A stretch of 63,491 bases of DNA from a virus: positions 1 to 63,491 of the IMG/VR virus record IMGVR_UViG_3300046005_001261, one strand, 5' to 3'. The notes below the pieces were generated by a model, which worked only from the letters and a program-made list of their open reading frames with translations, searched no databases and was not told the origin of the DNA. Both the position numbers and the translations under genes were made by a program. Below are positions 3,783 through 61,298 of the stretch, piece after piece. The number at the start of each line of letters is the position of its first letter. The first letter of the stretch is position 1.

Positions 3783-4433
3783 ATGCGGACGTTCCATGAA
3801 TACAATTTTCCAAAACTAGTTCAAAAGAATACTGATGGATCTAGAGTTTATTTAACTCCAACTGGAGAAAAGTATCCATCAGTAACTTCTGTCACGGGTT
3901 TAGGAGGTGCTAAACATATAATGGAATGGCGTGACAGAGTAGGTCATGCAGAAGCAGATGCTATATCTAGAAGAGCTGCGAATAGAGGTACTCGTATCCA
4001 TAAACTGTGCGAAAACTATCTACTCGGTAAAGAAATAGAAGTTGATATGTTTGATAAAGAAGTATTCAACTCAATGTTGCCTCATATAGATAAAGTTGGG
4101 GATATACATTGTATTGAAAAAAGAATTTATTCTCATATATTAAAAGTAGGAGGTACTGTTGATTTAATTGCAGAATTTGATGGAGAAATATCAGTACTTG
4201 ATTGGAAGACTTCAAGAAGAGTAAAGGATTTTGATGAATTTGATGGGTACTTTATGCAAGCAGCAGCATATTCTCAATGCTTTCTAGAGTTGACTGGAAT
4301 TAATATAGATAAGTTAGTAGTTGTTATAGGTATTGATGATAATCCATCAATGGTCTATATAGAAGATAAAGCAATTTGGTTAAAGAAGTTTAAGCATCAA
4401 AGATACAAATATTATGCAATTAAAAAGATATAA
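3783..4433 (+). CDS. PD-(D/E)XK exonuclease (RecB/MGME1-like)
   Basis: The 216-aa protein has the nuclease core order GTRIH (69-73), IEKRIYS with E112, GGTVD with D127, DWK at 140-142, and MQAAAYS with Q159. D127, D140 and K142 should hold the catalytic metal. T4-like cyanophages carry similar small exonucleases related to the mitochondrial genome maintenance exonuclease. A role in DNA recombination or degradation fits its early-operon place, downstream of the promoter at 3552. Its 3' end overlaps the 3' end of the convergent homing endonuclease by 22 bases. Confidence 0.8.
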   Translation: MRTFHEYNFPKLVQKNTDGSRVYLTPTGEKYPSVTSVTGLGGAKHIMEWRDRVGHAEADAISRRAANRGTRIHKLCENYLLGKEIEVDMFDKEVFNSMLPHIDKVGDIHCIEKRIYSHILKVGGTVDLIAEFDGEISVLDWKTSRRVKDFDEFDGYFMQAAAYSQCFLELTGINIDKLVVVIGIDDNPSMVYIEDKAIWLKKFKHQRYKYYAIKKI

Positions 4434-5083
4434 CAAGATAATTTGTTTTTAATATCTTCTAAGTATTCGTCTGATCTCATATATGTATTATTAGGTATTT
4501 TCATGCCTAAGTTTTTGTATAATTCTTTTATTTCTAGATATATAGGTCTAAGAGCTAAATTTCTTTTTTTATCCCCGCTATTTAAAAAATTATGAGTACC
4601 ATTAGTTATTCGGAGTTTACTACTAACTTTTCCTCCAGTCCTACCTACTTCACTATTAAGAAAATTATGAGTGCCATCAATAACTCGTTGGTTATTCCAT
4701 AGTATAGCATTATCTCTATTTAAAAAGTTATGTGTTTTATTATCTACACGTTTTTTATTATGTTTTGAAACTAGTTCCGCGGTAAAACCGTCAAGACCAT
4801 TTTCTGGTTTTAGATTAGCCCATTCACTTGATTTGACAATATTATATTCTTCTGAAAATAATAAAGCAAAGTCTGTTAATAATTCTTGTGTATCAAACTG
4901 ATGAAACCACAGAGTTTTGATATACTTTTTTCCGTGTTTCTTAATATGCTTAACCCAATATGTTCCAGATCCATAGTACTTTATTGGATCTTTTTTGGTT
5001 GTCATACCAAAGTATTTTAGACCTGTAACTGAGTGTTGTTTGATGTAGAGATAGGTAGGTGTAATTGGGGTATATATAGTCAT
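4412..5083 (-). CDS. GIY-YIG-type homing endonuclease with THNFLN repeats
   Basis: I place the start at 5083 rather than at an upstream in-frame codon at 5140, because AAGGAG lies at the right distance before it. The N-terminal nuclease domain has YLYIKQ (11-16) and LKYFG (22-26) in place of GIY and YIG, then GSGTYW and HGKKYI. It is very similar to the enzyme at 60606. The C-terminal half holds three THNFLN copies, probably DNA-contacting repeats. A free-standing mobile endonuclease is the likely role. It runs against the surrounding early genes and has a structured leader at 5109-5138. Confidence 0.82.
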   Translation of the reverse strand: MTIYTPITPTYLYIKQHSVTGLKYFGMTTKKDPIKYYGSGTYWVKHIKKHGKKYIKTLWFHQFDTQELLTDFALLFSEEYNIVKSSEWANLKPENGLDGFTAELVSKHNKKRVDNKTHNFLNRDNAILWNNQRVIDGTHNFLNSEVGRTGGKVSSKLRITNGTHNFLNSGDKKRNLALRPIYLEIKELYKNLGMKIPNNTYMRSDEYLEDIKNKLSCYIFLIA

Positions 5084-5108
5084 GCTGGTACTCCTTGAAA
5101 GTATTAGA

Positions 5109-5138
5109 GCCAATAGATCTGCCAGGATCGTGATTGGC
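5109..5138 (-). ncRNA. Homing-endonuclease leader hairpin, copy C
   Basis: On the minus strand: outer stem GCCAAT/ATTGGC (6 bp), CAC opposite a single T, inner stem GATC/GATC (4 bp), six-base loop CTGGCA. It is 30 nt long and ends 25 bases before the endonuclease start. Stem sequences differ from copies A (58665) and B (60541), but the pairing, internal loop and loop length are the same. A TCTAA sequence follows all three. Confidence 0.7.
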
Positions 5139-5148
5139 ATTTTTAATG

Positions 5149-5177
5149 TTTACATATAACGTATTTTGTTATATAAT
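5149..5177 (+). promoter_or_regulatory. Early sigma70-type promoter for the SleB hydrolase
   Basis: TTTACA (5149-5154), 17 bp, TATAAT (5172-5177) followed by AG. The predicted transcript has an untranslated leader of about 185 nt before the start at 5369. It lies next to a minus-strand late promoter at 5181-5188. Confidence 0.65.
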
Positions 5178-5180
5178 AGT

Positions 5181-5188
5181 TATTTATA
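5181..5188 (-). promoter_or_regulatory. Late promoter TATAAATA for the homing endonuclease
   Basis: The minus strand reads TATAAATA about 95 bases before the endonuclease start at 5083. Transcription would begin near 5175 and run through the early promoter at 5149-5177, so late transcription would oppose early SleB transcription. Confidence 0.5.
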
Positions 5189-57149: not shown

Positions 57150-58553
57150 ATGGAATTAAATCGTTCTGCCCTTTTAGAAAAATGGGCTCCTGTAATTGAC
57201 GCTGATGGCGCTCCTGCTATTAAAGACTTTACTCGTCGTGGTGACTTAGCTGTTATCCTAGAAAACCAACAACGTGAAATGAATGCTGCTAGCCAAGCTA
57301 ACGGTATGCTTTTCGAAGCTGGTACAGGCGGTGTTTCTACTAACATTGGTGGTGGTGGCAACTATGGTGTCAATACTACTGGTACTGGTACATACAATGC
57401 TGGCGCTGCTGGTACTGGTGGTGTAGCTGGTTTTGATCCTGTGTTGATTAACTTAGTACGTCGTGCTATGCCTCAGTTGATTGCATATGATGTTGCTGGT
57501 GTTCAACCAATGACTCAACCAACTGGTTTGATTTTTGCAATGAAATCTCGTTACACTAGTCCAAGTGGAACAGAAGCATTGTTTAACGAAGCAAACACTA
57601 GCTTTACTGGTACTTCAGGCGCTACTGGTACTGATCCTACCGGCGCTACTGGTTTATCAACTGGTTCATACCAAACTGGTTTAGGTTTGTCTACTGCTAA
57701 TGCTGAAATTTTAGGTTCTACTTCAGGTGAAGCATTTCCTGAAATGGCATTCTCAATTGAAAAAACTTCAGTTGTTGCTAAAACTCGTGCATTGAAAGCT
57801 GAATACTCTATCGAATTAGCACAAGACTTGAAATCAGTTCATGGTCTTGACGCTGAAGGCGAATTAAGCAAAATTCTTTCTACTGAAATTCTTGCTGAAA
57901 TTAACCGTGAAGTTATTCGTACTATCTACACTGTTGCTAAACAAGGTGCTGCTGTTGGTACTGCTACTGCTGGTATTTTTGATCTTGACGTTGACTCTAA
58001 TGGTCGTTGGTCAGTTGAAAAATTCAAAGGTTTGTTGTTCCAAATCGAAAGAGAAGCTAACGCTATCGCTCAACAAACACGTCGTGGACGTGGTAACTTC
58101 ATCATCTGTTCTTCAGATGTTGCTTCTGCTTTAGCAATGGCTGGTGTATTAGATTATGCTCCTGCTCTTTCTACTGGTTTGAATGTTGATGAAGCATCTA
58201 CTACTTTTGCTGGTATCTTAAACGGCAAATATAAAGTTTATGTTGATCCTTACACTGGTGGTAACAACCCATCTGCTGCAGGTCTACAATTCTTTACTGT
58301 AGGTTATAAAGGTACTTCTGCGTTTGACGCTGGTTTGTTCTATTGCCCATATGTTCCATTGCAAATGGTTCGTGCGGTTGATCCACAAACTTTCCAACCT
58401 AAAATTGGCTTCAAAACTCGTTACGGTATGGTTGCTAACCCAATGGTTGATATTGATGACGCTTCAATGTCTGCTACTTCAAATGCTGACAACTCAATGA
58501 CAGCGCGTAAAAATTACTATTATAGAATTTGTAAAGTTACAAATCTTATGTAA
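57150..58553 (+). CDS. gp23: gp23, major capsid protein
   Basis: The 467-aa protein (T4: 521) begins MELNRSALLEKWAPVIDADG, has NQQREMNAASQANG near residue 37-50 and the maturation region FDPVLINLVRRAMPQLIAYD (about 96-115). QPMTQPTGLIFAMKSRYTS, SVVAKTRALKAEYSIELAQD and LKSVHGLDAEGELSKIL follow, with the end FKTRYGMVANPM. Codons end in C more often than in neighbours (AAC, ATC, TTC), consistent with heavy expression. A terminator follows. Confidence 0.96.
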   Translation: MELNRSALLEKWAPVIDADGAPAIKDFTRRGDLAVILENQQREMNAASQANGMLFEAGTGGVSTNIGGGGNYGVNTTGTGTYNAGAAGTGGVAGFDPVLINLVRRAMPQLIAYDVAGVQPMTQPTGLIFAMKSRYTSPSGTEALFNEANTSFTGTSGATGTDPTGATGLSTGSYQTGLGLSTANAEILGSTSGEAFPEMAFSIEKTSVVAKTRALKAEYSIELAQDLKSVHGLDAEGELSKILSTEILAEINREVIRTIYTVAKQGAAVGTATAGIFDLDVDSNGRWSVEKFKGLLFQIEREANAIAQQTRRGRGNFIICSSDVASALAMAGVLDYAPALSTGLNVDEASTTFAGILNGKYKVYVDPYTGGNNPSAAGLQFFTVGYKGTSAFDAGLFYCPYVPLQMVRAVDPQTFQPKIGFKTRYGMVANPMVDIDDASMSATSNADNSMTARKNYYYRICKVTNLM

Positions 58554-58619: not shown

Positions 58620-58652
58620 ATTTTGATAGATTAATGGCTTTAATAAATCATT

Positions 58653-58660
58653 AATAAATA
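58653..58660 (+). promoter_or_regulatory. Variant late promoter AATAAATA for a homing endonuclease
   Basis: AATAAATA followed by AG, one mismatch to TATAAATA. With T4 spacing the first transcribed base would be about 58666, at the base of the hairpin starting at 58665. Confidence 0.5.
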
Positions 58661-58664
58661 AGTT

Positions 58665-58694
58665 GTAGATCACGGATCCCTCAATCCTATCTAC
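58665..58694 (+). ncRNA. Homing-endonuclease leader hairpin, copy A
   Basis: Outer stem GTAGAT/ATCTAC (6 bp), CAC opposite T, inner stem GGAT/ATCC (4 bp), loop CCCTCA. It is 30 nt and starts where the late transcript should begin. The following sequence (TCTAAACATTCTAACAACTA and onward to ATGTCCAGC) is nearly identical to the region after copy B. Compared with copies B and C, stem bases change in pairs. Confidence 0.78.
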
Positions 58695-58727
58695 TCTAAA
58701 CATTCTAACAACTATTAAGGAACAGTT

Positions 58728-59516
58728 ATGTCCAGCACAAATATATATTCAATATATCTTATAACAAATTTAATCAATAATAAGAAATATATTGGTTATA
58801 CATCAAATAAATTAGGTCATAGATTTAATGACCATTGTAAAATTACCAAACCAAAATATCAAGAAAGATCTCCTATATCTTTTGCTATTGAAAAATATGG
58901 CAAACACAATTTTTATTGTAATGTTATTTTGCAATCTAATGATTATGAATATTGCAGATTAATAGAAACTGATTTTATTATTCAATATGATTCATTGACT
59001 TCTACTCAAGGAGGTCAAGGTTATAATATAGATAAGGGCGGAAGAGGCCATAAAAGATCCCCTGAAACTATTGAAAAACATAGACAAAAAATGAAAGGTA
59101 GACCTCAATCAGAAGAACATAGAGCAAAAATATCTGTTGCTAATAAAGGTAATACTAACGGTAGTAATAACAAAGGTAAAATTAGAACTAAAGAACAGAA
59201 TAATGCCAATAGCGTACAACGAAAAAAAGAATATCAGAATGGGAGAATTTCTCCACTTAAAGGTAAAAAATTTAAAGATGATTATCCTCATGCTTTAGAA
59301 AAGATGAAACAAACTAAATTACAAAATAGAATATTTACTAATAAGTATAAAAATTTGGTTGTTCAGTTTAAAAATAATAATCCAATTAATTTAGACATAA
59401 ATTATACAGATTGGTTCCAAACCCATTCTTTAAATAACTTTATGAGCAAACAAACAAAAAATAATTCTATACCAATAAAAGGTTGGAAATTAATAAGTTT
59501 TGAATTGAATAAATAG
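58728..59516 (+). CDS. GIY-YIG homing endonuclease with NUMOD3 motifs
   Basis: The 262-aa protein has a classical GIY-YIG domain: SIYLITNLINNKKYIGYTS (8-26), R32 in HRF, and the glutamate in LIETDFI. Two NUMOD3-like DNA-binding pieces follow: KRSPETIEKHRQKMKGRP with SEEHRAKIS (about 109-137), then ISPLKGKKF. It is free-standing, between gp23 and gp3, where mobile endonucleases often sit near conserved capsid genes. AAGGAAC precedes ATG. Its leader is nearly the same as that of the gene at 60606, although the proteins are of different subtypes. Confidence 0.9.
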   Translation: MSSTNIYSIYLITNLINNKKYIGYTSNKLGHRFNDHCKITKPKYQERSPISFAIEKYGKHNFYCNVILQSNDYEYCRLIETDFIIQYDSLTSTQGGQGYNIDKGGRGHKRSPETIEKHRQKMKGRPQSEEHRAKISVANKGNTNGSNNKGKIRTKEQNNANSVQRKKEYQNGRISPLKGKKFKDDYPHALEKMKQTKLQNRIFTNKYKNLVVQFKNNNPINLDINYTDWFQTHSLNNFMSKQTKNNSIPIKGWKLISFELNK

Positions 59517-59538
59517 TAAAACACTATCAGGTACTATA

Positions 59539-60069
59539 ATGGCAATAACAACTACATGTCCGTTTCCAACAAATATAAATCCACTATCTAGTAATGGGTT
59601 TAATTTTTCTATTTCAAAATTACCGGAAGTATCATTCTTTTGTCAAGAAATTAATCTTCCAGGTATGTCTTTACCTACATTTGAAGTGAACACTCCTTTA
59701 TCGGCTTTGCCATTTAGTGGGGAAATACTTTCATTTGAAGATCTAAATATACAGTTTATTATAGATCAAAATATGAGTAATTATATTGCTGTATATAATT
59801 GGATGATAGGACTTGGTTTTCCAGAAGATAATAATCAATTTACTGATTTTATTAATTTACAAGATACAGGGTATAGTAGAACAAGTAAAGAATATTCTGA
59901 TGCTACTTTGCAAATATTAGGAAGTAATAATCTACCGGTAAAAACTGTAAAGTTTATAGATATTCTACCATTGAATTTAAGTTCAATGAATTTTCTATCT
60001 ACAAATACAGATGTATCATATTTAGTTGGGAATGTAACATTTAAAATAAGTAGATACGAATTTATATAA
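59539..60069 (+). CDS. gp3: gp3, tail tube terminator / completion protein
   Basis: A 176-aa protein, the same length as T4 gp3. It carries FNFSISKLPEVSFFCQEINL, PGMSLPTFEVNTPLSALPFS, GEILSFEDLNIQFIIDQNMS and YIAVYNWMIGLGFPED, the tube-like fold used by tail terminators. In T4-like cyanophages, gp3 follows gp23 and precedes uvsY, the order seen here apart from the inserted endonuclease. It should cap the tail tube at the head-proximal end. gp19-like proteins are the main alternative. Confidence 0.75.
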   Translation: MAITTTCPFPTNINPLSSNGFNFSISKLPEVSFFCQEINLPGMSLPTFEVNTPLSALPFSGEILSFEDLNIQFIIDQNMSNYIAVYNWMIGLGFPEDNNQFTDFINLQDTGYSRTSKEYSDATLQILGSNNLPVKTVKFIDILPLNLSSMNFLSTNTDVSYLVGNVTFKISRYEFI

Positions 60070-60083
60070 TTTTTGAGGATATT

Positions 60084-60524
60084 ATGGCTACAATTGATGA
60101 ACTTTTATCAGAATGGGATGAAGACTCTACTATGGATGATAATCATATCTCGAATGAATCCATTCGAGTTCCAAAGTTGCATGCTAAGTATATAAGATAT
60201 TTAATGCAGGCAAAACTTAAAGTTACAAAATATAATAATGATTATAATGTTCTAAAAAAGACTAAGTTTAGATACTATAGAGGCGAACTTTCAAGAGAAG
60301 AATTGTCTACCTTGCAATGGGAACAATGGTTAGGTGTCAAACCTATGAAGAATGAGATGGATCAATTTCTTGATGGTGACACTGATCTTAACAATATGAA
60401 AGTTAAAATAGAATATTTACAAACTATGAGTTACCTACTTGAATCTATCCTAGGTCAAATAAAAGCTAGAGATTGGCAATTAAAAACAGTTCTAGAACAT
60501 AAAAAGTTTTTAGCTGGAAATTAA
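60084..60524 (+). CDS. uvsY: UvsY, recombination mediator
   Basis: A 146-aa protein (T4 UvsY: 137) with the UvsY helical pattern: IRVPKLHAKYIRYLMQAKLK, VLKKTKFRYYRGELSREELS, then MDQFLDGDTDLNNMKVKIEY and LESILGQIKARDWQLKTVLE, ending HKKFLAGN. It helps load UvsX recombinase on gp32-coated DNA. It lies beside the homing endonuclease and uvsW, the T4-like uvsY-uvsW pair split by the insertion. Confidence 0.88.
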   Translation: MATIDELLSEWDEDSTMDDNHISNESIRVPKLHAKYIRYLMQAKLKVTKYNNDYNVLKKTKFRYYRGELSREELSTLQWEQWLGVKPMKNEMDQFLDGDTDLNNMKVKIEYLQTMSYLLESILGQIKARDWQLKTVLEHKKFLAGN

Positions 60525-60529
60525 AAATA

Positions 60530-60537
60530 TATAAATA
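60530..60537 (+). promoter_or_regulatory. Late promoter TATAAATA for a homing endonuclease
   Basis: Perfect TATAAATA followed by AGT. The predicted start near 60543 coincides with the 5' side of the hairpin at 60541. It may also supply late transcripts of uvsW. Confidence 0.7.
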
Positions 60538-60540
60538 AGT

Positions 60541-60570
60541 ATAGGTCACGGAACTGCAATTCCTACCTAT
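60541..60570 (+). ncRNA. Homing-endonuclease leader hairpin, copy B
   Basis: Outer stem ATAGGT/ACCTAT (6 bp), CAC opposite T, inner stem GGAA/TTCC (4 bp), loop CTGCAA. Same 30-nt size and geometry as copies A and C, with paired stem changes. Confidence 0.78.
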
Positions 60571-60605
60571 TCTAAACATTCTAACAACTATTACAAGGAA
60601 CAGTT

Positions 60606-61298
60606 ATGTCCAGCGAAACTATATATCAAGAAATAATTCCAACATATCTCTATATAAAACAACATTCAATTACTGGTCTAAAATACTTTGGTAAAACAAC
60701 CAATGATCCTTATACCTATAATGGATCTGGAGTTTATTGGAATGATCATATTAAAAAGCATGGTAAAGAACATATAGTTACATTATGGGTGTCTAATCTA
60801 TTTCATGATAAATCTATTGTTGATTATGCTTTACATTTCTCAGAAGAGAACAATATTGTAGAATCCAAAGAATGGGCAAACCAAAAACCAGAAAATGGTT
60901 TAGAAGGCGGGGCAACTACTAATGGAAAAATATGGATTAATAATGGTGTAACTAATTTGTATATACATAAATATGATCTTATACCACTAGGTTATAAAAA
61001 AGGAAGATTGTGCAAATTTAATGACCCTAATTTTCAAAGGGAAATGTCTTCTAAGGTAGATAGGATTAAACAATCAAATGCTATGAAACAAAAATGGAAT
61101 GAAGGAACGTTTATTAGAGATCATTCTAAATGTGGTAAAAAAGGTGCAGATAATGTCTCAAAAAGACCTGAAGTTAGAAATAAACTGTCTATAGTCGCTA
61201 AAAATAGACCCCTGATAACGTGCCCGCATTGTACTAAAATAGGAATAACCTCTCCTGGAATGTTTAAACACCATTTTGATAATTGTAAAAATAAATGA
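60606..61298 (+). CDS. GIY-YIG-type homing endonuclease with C-terminal zinc finger
   Basis: The 230-aa protein has YLYIKQHSITGLKYFG at 14-29, GSGVYWNDHIKKHG and ENNIVESKEWANQKPENGLE, nearly the same N-terminal domain as the minus-strand enzyme at 4412. Then comes GKIWINNGVTNLYIHKYDLI with PLGYKKGRL, a segment found in homing endonucleases. The end holds a CPHC ... HHFDNC zinc-binding finger (C2HC type). It sits between uvsY and uvsW, and its stop overlaps the uvsW start by four bases. Confidence 0.87.
   Translation: MSSETIYQEIIPTYLYIKQHSITGLKYFGKTTNDPYTYNGSGVYWNDHIKKHGKEHIVTLWVSNLFHDKSIVDYALHFSEENNIVESKEWANQKPENGLEGGATTNGKIWINNGVTNLYIHKYDLIPLGYKKGRLCKFNDPNFQREMSSKVDRIKQSNAMKQKWNEGTFIRDHSKCGKKGADNVSKRPEVRNKLSIVAKNRPLITCPHCTKIGITSPGMFKHHFDNCKNK

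Follow-up and report, generated by a model that had tools for sequence, protein, structure and literature searches.

The stretch of DNA analysed here, 63,491 nucleotides of the virus record IMGVR_UViG_3300046005_001261 (hereafter the window), is a fragment of a T4-like phage genome with gp23 at 57150-58553, uvsY at 60084 and uvsW at 61295. It contains three homing endonuclease genes (HEGs), and at the start of each of them sits a small hairpin. An earlier reading of the letters, made without database searches (the sequence-only reading), had placed these hairpins at 58665-58694 and 60541-60570 on the plus strand and at 5138-5109 on the minus strand, and we found them at exactly these positions. 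In a descriptor scan of both strands the completely paired form (6 and 4 base pairs, a loop of 6 bases, then TCTAA) occurred only these three times in the window. In the following, H1 and H2 denote hairpins as read on the HEG-sense strand, H1' and H2' the same hairpins as read on the opposite strand.

The hairpin is a real, selected structure, which is present in hundreds of T4-like phage contigs and shows near-perfect covariation. A 15-base pattern, TCACGNNNCNNNNANNNCTANNNNNTCTAA, was found in at least 119 stretches of IMG/VR. Among the matches listed, 126 were scored for stem pairing; the 6+4 pairs were complete in 108 of them, and another 6 reached 5+4. The proposed covarying hairpin has many further copies in phage metagenomes. 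As a negative control, 257 Gb of bacterial and archaeal genomes were searched with this pattern, which matched 42 times and never with more than 7 pairs. Since stem pairing is absent there, these are chance matches, and a chance origin of the fully paired phage hairpins is excluded. In 72 copies RNAalifold predicted 11 pairs, every one of which had double changes.

A search with HEG proteins, which is blind to the leader, exposed a second subtype with CGC opposite C, and a DNA pattern made for this subtype was likewise abundant in IMG/VR. The bulge combinations among the matches listed were CAC/T (74), CGC/C (117) and CAC/C (18), with no case of CGC/T, which shows that a pair is formed by the middle base and the base facing it. 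Hence the CAC opposite one T described earlier is present in the window, but it is not an inert internal loop; its middle base is paired and flanked by two invariant unpaired Cs. The loop of six bases with C first and A last also turned out to be too narrow a description, as loops in the family have 6-7 nt and are mostly C..A or T..G. The 6-nt loops of H1 were seen as CxxxAA and TTxxxG, and several are exact reverse complements of each other (CGCCAA/TTGGCG, CTGCAA/TTGCAG). This could mean that the inner hairpin is inverted, perhaps by template switching. Such an inversion is not proved: 9 of 13 6-nt T..G loops have their reverse complement among the C..A loops, and column shuffling gave a mean of 5.4 and a maximum of 9.

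The element is longer than the 30 nt assigned to it before. It also includes a second covarying hairpin, H2, formed between TCTAA and (C/T)CAGC and carrying the Shine-Dalgarno sequence of the ribosome-binding site (RBS), and continues with CAGC and then TATTTAT. The two arms of H2 form at least 4 contiguous pairs in 78% of cases within an element, compared with 14% when arms are swapped between elements. CAGC is kept whether the start codon precedes it (ATGTCCAGC) or comes after it (CAGCATG); because it is conserved on either side of the start codon it is a feature of the nucleic acid and not of the peptide. The RBS lies inside the element, and there are two classes, one with the AUG within the complementary region, the other with the AUG 0-4 nt beyond CAGC. 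A variant element with a CAT bulge and CCAGT instead of CAGC (L140, near 1940-2007) was missed by the descriptors, so the family is wider than counted.

Covariation alone says nothing about the strand on which a structure is formed. Wobble pairs can assign it, since A·C on the HEG-sense strand means G·U on the opposite strand, and this approach could be used on other candidate RNAs. For H1, 241 unique copies were counted with the loop-closing pair omitted. The non-Watson-Crick cells on the HEG-sense strand were A·C or C·A in 56 cases and G·U in 2; reduced to 165 distinct stems, the ratio was 43 to 2. Intrinsic terminators of these loci, in which the T-run reveals the RNA strand, showed 35 G·U versus 5 A·C (Fisher p 8e-19 for H1 versus terminators, a descriptive value since the copies are related). 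H2 had 144 A·C versus 2 G·U cells on the sense strand, and one of its base pairs was A·C in 207 of 207 copies, i.e. G·U on the antisense strand. RNAfold gave a mean minimum free energy of -18.1 kcal/mol for the antisense and -12.2 kcal/mol for the sense strand, the antisense being lower in 228 of 233 copies. When 58 sequences were aligned on the antisense strand, standard pairs made up 94.6% of cells, in contrast to 32-43% when partners were slid, and both sides had changed in 15 of 20 pairs. On the sense strand H2 was weak or absent, and no leader stem of the T4 type, which sequesters the RBS and has a 5' arm overlapping the late promoter, was found. The view that the structure is selected and linked to HEGs stands, but its placement in the leader mRNA, for example as a late-mRNA stabiliser, is wrong or incomplete; the evidence assigns the structure to the opposite strand.

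A promoter motif was found where a transcript of that strand would need one. Just past the HEG start codon lies a conserved TATTTAT; a TATTTA-type motif follows CAGC at a distance of 5 nt in 168 of 241 copies, and TATTTATN (sense strand) is its largest group family-wide. Relative to the start codon the motif uses all three reading frames (162/21/10). Read on the antisense strand it is NATAAATA, a T4-type late promoter, 5-8 nt before the GCUG with which the antisense structure begins. In T4 the distance from late promoter to transcription start is about 6 nt, with which the spacing between motif and GCUG agrees. In three HEG families the motif accompanied 112 of 116 HEGs that have the element, compared to 16 of 66 that lack it. 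At the other end, H1' is followed by A or AC and then by a sequence rich in U, with 5 or more T among 9 nt for 223 of 240 copies. In the class with the sense promoter far upstream ('far' class, 57 of 241 copies, including window copy 3), this sequence is A-UUUUU. Taken together, the wobble pattern, the folding energies, the antisense late promoter and the U-rich 3' end agree better with an antisense RNA than with a leader element of the mRNA.

The three window copies and their genes are listed in Table 1. Antisense and sense folding energies were -19.0 and -12.2 kcal/mol for copy 1, -18.7 and -11.2 kcal/mol for copy 2, and -17.4 and -12.1 for copy 3. Copy 1 spans the leader, RBS and AUG of its HEG, with the complement of the RBS on the loop side of H2' and that of the AUG in the stem. 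In copy 3 the 3' end consists of the hairpin, A and UUUUU. A terminator-like site was called in this copy at 5120-5139 of the plus strand (tail TTTTTAATGT; shuffles 0.0), but not in copies 1 and 2.

Table 1. Antisense elements, promoters and homing endonuclease genes in the window.
Feature	Position	Strand	Evidence or remark
Antisense RNA element, copy 1	58655..58736	-	covariance model (CM) R1, 43.7 bits, E 3.8e-11, minus-strand match; 5' end ~58736, U-rich 3' tail to ~58655
Antisense RNA element, copy 2, over start of HEG 2	60531..60614	-	CM R1, 53.5 bits, E 3.6e-14
Antisense RNA element, copy 3, over start of HEG 3	5084..5148	+	CM R1, 67.4 bits, E 1.8e-18
Hairpin H1', copy 1	58665..58694	-	pattern, descriptor scan, folding; hairpin of the sequence-only reading, opposite strand
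Hairpin H1', copy 2	60541..60570	-	pattern, descriptor scan, folding
Hairpin H1', copy 3	5109..5138	+	pattern, descriptor scan, folding
Hairpin H2', copy 1 (GCUGGACAU...AUGUUUAGA)	58695..58736	-	sequence; H2 covariation in 207 copies
Hairpin H2', copy 2	60571..60614	-	folding
Hairpin H2', copy 3	5084..5108	+	folding
Candidate antisense late promoter, copy 1, AATATATA	58742..58749	-	one mismatch to NATAAATA; family-wide TATTTAT, 5 nt from CAGC
Candidate antisense late promoter, copy 2, GATATATA	60620..60627	-	one mismatch; same family-wide TATTTAT motif
Candidate antisense late promoter, copy 3, TATATATA	5071..5078	+	one mismatch to TATAAATA; family-wide TATTTAT motif
Sense T4-type late promoter, HEG 1, TAATAAATA	58652..58660	+	overlaps 3' tail of antisense RNA
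Sense late promoter, HEG 2, TATAAATA	60530..60537	+	motif scan
Sense late promoter, HEG 3, TATAAATA	5181..5188	-	motif scan; ~45 nt upstream of H1 ('far' class)
HEG 1, GIY-YIG + NUMOD3, between gp23 and tail-tube gene	58728..59516	+	Pfam GIY-YIG 6.8e-07, NUMOD3 6.9e-06; PHROG homing endonuclease 6.6e-27
HEG 2, GIY-YIG-like, exactly between uvsY and uvsW	60606..61298	+	weak PHROG homing endonuclease match; empty sites in relatives
HEG 3, GIY-YIG-like, listed open reading frame	4412..5140	-	weak PHROG match, 6.4e-04; aligns with HEG 2

The conserved start of HEG 3 comes after CCAGC at 5083, with HEG codons 5083-4415. At 61295-61298 the stop codon of HEG 2 overlaps the start codon of uvsW, whose RBS now lies inside the 3' end of the HEG. 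In copies of the 'far' class (5138-5188 on the minus strand of the window; L131, L161, L192, L119, L372) the sense late promoter and H1 are separated by an extra inverted repeat, e.g. ATATAAC..GTTATAT, with GTCAA or GTAAA often coming after it.

The tie to HEGs suggested by the window holds throughout the family: an open frame was found at the expected position after the element in 234 of 241 copies. Five of the seven exceptions resemble HEGs that have decayed or been frameshifted; in L106 a short leader frame precedes the HEG, and the match in L038 is probably due to chance. The element-linked proteins examined (122, from the loci found by the DNA pattern plus the window's own) matched phrog_314, the PHROG homing endonuclease family, in 78 cases, and the Pfam domains among them were NUMOD3 (33), GIY-YIG (14), HNH_3 (10), SegE GIY-YIG (10), HNH (8), HNH_5 (5) and PDDEXK_15 (1). 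The element therefore occurs on HEGs of unrelated nuclease families, namely GIY-YIG, HNH and PD-(D/E)XK. A single contig can hold as many as 13 copies, next to HEGs from several families.

The possibility that the structure is part of a mobile cassette, raised in the sequence-only reading, is supported at the uvsY/uvsW junction. In close relatives (uvsY 91-95% identical) the two genes are fused at TAATG with no insert, while the window carries an insertion of late promoter, element and HEG precisely at this point. Because they were inserted together, the element travels with the HEG. Among isolates, the element is present in Pseudoalteromonas phage vB_Psh_XG4 and Variovorax phage V45v66, in both on GIY-YIG HEGs. 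The model R1 had no match in the 17 other isolates searched: T4, Aeh1, S-PM2 (NC_006820), Aeromonas phage 25, Pelagibacter HTVC008M, S-SRM01, Synechococcus phages B23, ACG-2014f_Syn7803C7 and RN05-S, phiN3, phiM19, BcepSauron, phiA8-29, vB_OspM_OC, RHph_X2_25 and two Vibrio phages. In V45v66 (L632; PV558790.1, 85400-87400) the element occupies 85995-86058 on the minus strand, and the HEG that bears it also lies between a uvsY-like and a uvsW-like gene, in opposite orientation to them, so that an antisense RNA would point into the uvsW-like gene.

Several loci depart from the usual arrangement. In L401 (2929, plus strand), L477 (minus-strand copy), L672, L678 and L688 the element stands beside short or frameshifted HEG frames; possibly these are decaying cassettes with an intact antisense element. 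L698, L699, L033 and L106 have a leader frame of 17 codons at the usual start, with TATTTAT retained in the short frame, and in L106 and L033 an HNH HEG begins about 50 nt beyond the start of this frame. In an HNH family (A4; L289-L368) many relatives of the HEGs have no element and a late promoter directly before the RBS, which provides a natural contrast to HEGs under the presumed antisense control.

It appears likely, judged from the sequences, that each HEG cassette carries a cis-antisense RNA of about 65-85 nt which is driven by a late promoter and represses its own HEG. While structure, strand preference, promoter motif, U-rich end, HEG association and co-insertion were established computationally, we infer the antisense transcription, its exact ends, the repression and the way in which pairing starts. 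The small-RNA gene would overlap the 5' end of the HEG, with its T4-type late promoter on the opposite strand within the first HEG codons, and transcription would begin at GCUG, 5-8 nt downstream of this promoter. The RNA is predicted to fold into two tandem hairpins, H2' and then H1', followed by the U-rich tail. H2' would have the form CUGR...UUAG with the RBS complement in the loop; H1' would consist of 6 bp, an R:Y pair with two unpaired Gs on the 3' side, 4 bp, and a loop of 6-7 nt. Such an RNA would be fully complementary to the leader, the RBS and usually the start codon of the HEG mRNA. Pairing of the two RNAs, probably begun at the hairpin loops, would block HEG translation. Possibly it adds mRNA decay, or the promoters collide, as the convergent late promoters are about 75 bp apart and could interfere with each other. 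The result would be that a self-spreading nuclease is kept low in late infection.

Several points weigh against this interpretation. The conserved G-Y-G bulge of H1' is not required by classical antisense control. Being surplus to antisense pairing, it may, together with the conserved G·U of H2', mark a protein site. Most copies have an interruption in the U-rich tail (ACUUUUAUUUAU), and the conservation of this tail is shared, because the same bases form the sense late promoter in the majority class. A single-stranded-DNA structure with strand specificity would likewise prefer G·T over A·C. In V45v66 the antisense transcript could double as a leader of uvsW. For the window itself the weakest link is the antisense promoters, which are TATATATA-like and one mismatch away from the consensus.

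An element of the HEG mRNA leader on the sense strand, which would protect the 5' end, occlude the RBS in read-through transcripts or serve as a protein operator, seems unlikely to us. H1 and H2 are indeed located downstream of the sense late promoter and ahead of the start codon, and where the spacing is the most frequent one (5 nt, 111 copies) a sense transcript would be expected to begin with the first base of H1. T4-like phages control HEGs by RBS-sequestering hairpins beside late promoters (PMC2988022, PMC3014915), and RBS occlusion has precedents in T4 e, soc, I-TevI and segB and in Aeh1 mobE. Moreover, TATTTAT is complementary to the upstream TATAAATA, so that read-through transcripts could close a long-range stem. 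Yet the wobble pairs fall on the wrong strand for a sense leader; H2 barely folds there, having an invariant A·C mismatch at its base; and the U-tract side lies upstream of the mRNA. A three-way junction formed by TATTTAT and TATAAATA in read-through mRNA was demoted, because the motif occurs without a nearby TATAAATA and the wobble evidence lies on the other strand; it is kept only within the sense-strand explanation.

Rather improbable is a structured RNA of the antisense strand which acts in trans, binding a protein or other targets, and merely rides with HEG genes. It could reach, for example, the RBSs of other genes through a CUCCU loop, as the H2' loop holds an anti-Shine-Dalgarno sequence; the invariant G-Y-G bulge, GCUGR and UUAGA exceed the needs of a simple antisense RNA, and up to 13 copies occur per genome. 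However, the element always overlaps the RBS and start of a HEG, and its stems and loops differ within a genome (2 of 158 H1 pairs are identical), which is ill-suited to one shared target.

We consider it very unlikely that the element acts as DNA, i.e. as a single-stranded structure (cruciform or lagging strand) in recombination, replication or mobility of the cassette. Template switching would then account for the compensatory changes. Intermediates are nearly lacking in H1, and loops seem to occur in both orientations (CxxxAA, TTxxxG), which is expected of template-switch inversion in palindromes. But the asymmetric bulge was never found flipped, the intermediates, where present, show a strand preference, and promoter, start-site spacing and U-tail are all positioned as for a transcript. 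An ssDNA hairpin like those of IS200/IS605 was rejected since promoter and U-tail suit a transcript better, though no search aimed at a second hairpin at the 3' end of the HEG was made. Hardly credible, finally, is that the antisense motif merely supplies opposite-strand genes with a replacement late promoter and an insulator: the antisense RNA of V45v66 is directed into uvsW, and window copy 3 faces away from its HEG towards plus-strand genes, but window copies 1 and 2 lie in a long run of same-strand genes with no opposite-strand gene nearby, and H2' and the bulge would be unexplained.

If cis-antisense repression is correct, each nuclease brings its own off-switch, which would bear on how phages tolerate many self-spreading nucleases. 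The RNA would represent a new, very common family of environmental T4-like phages, and its sharing by GIY-YIG, HNH and PD-(D/E)XK nucleases would mean that HEGs swap regulatory modules and not just nuclease domains. A further-reaching idea, which is possible but in our opinion doubtful, is that one antisense-RNA module, captured by HEGs of unrelated superfamilies, spreads across T4-like phages. Variable stems and loops would give specificity, a resident cassette would silence its own and incoming homologous copies without cross-talk, and a shared RNA-binding protein of the phage or the host would bind at the fixed G-Y-G bulge. This would amount to an incompatibility-like system among selfish genes within one virus. 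The divergence of H1 does not support such orthogonality, since mean identity is no lower within genomes (0.58) than between them (0.54).

As far as our searches show, the RNA family, its link to unrelated HEGs and its abundance are new, whereas the proposed mode of action has known counterparts. Rfam 15 gave no match at the gathering threshold for the window or for the element in 12 further loci, and a relaxed threshold gave chance matches only; this agrees with the earlier impression that no described RNA family has this form. A blastn search of the region against isolate phages gave no match, and a description of the element was not found in literature searches.

Structured antisense RNAs over a leader or RBS, with loops of 6-7 nt and bulged stems, are known from plasmid copy control (RNA I, CopA) and from type I antitoxins. 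In contrast to these, the target here would be a homing endonuclease in a lytic phage; sequences were compared through Rfam only. An antisense RNA to a HEG, reportedly expressed, exists in a T4-like phage, namely CfrI of cyanophage S-PM2 (psbA / F-CphI; PMC2984593). It differs in being about 225 nt long and linked to psbA, and S-PM2 has no R1 match. That T4-like phages regulate their HEGs through RNA structure and late promoters is well established (PMC2988022, PMC3014915), and the hairpins of T4 I-TevI/II/III, segB and Aeh1 mobE resemble the present element in placing RNA structure at the RBS of a late HEG beside a TATAAATA late promoter (PMC2988022). Those hairpins, however, are on the sense strand and individually evolved, whereas the element described here is on the antisense strand and forms one family, of which T4 and Aeh1 have no R1 match.

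The most similar arrangement is that of IS10, in which RNA-OUT is antisense to the transposase RNA-IN: an outward promoter lies inside the start of the gene of a mobile nuclease or recombinase, and the element carries with it a short RNA that forms a stable hairpin and is complementary to the RBS and the start codon. Unlike RNA-OUT, the RNA proposed here would have two tandem hairpins, the conserved G-Y-G bulge and a T4 late promoter, is common to unrelated nuclease families, and has no detectable sequence relation to RNA-OUT (no Rfam match). The features of the IS10 type, an antisense promoter motif, complementarity to RBS and start, and a stable antisense hairpin, are all found in the sequence.

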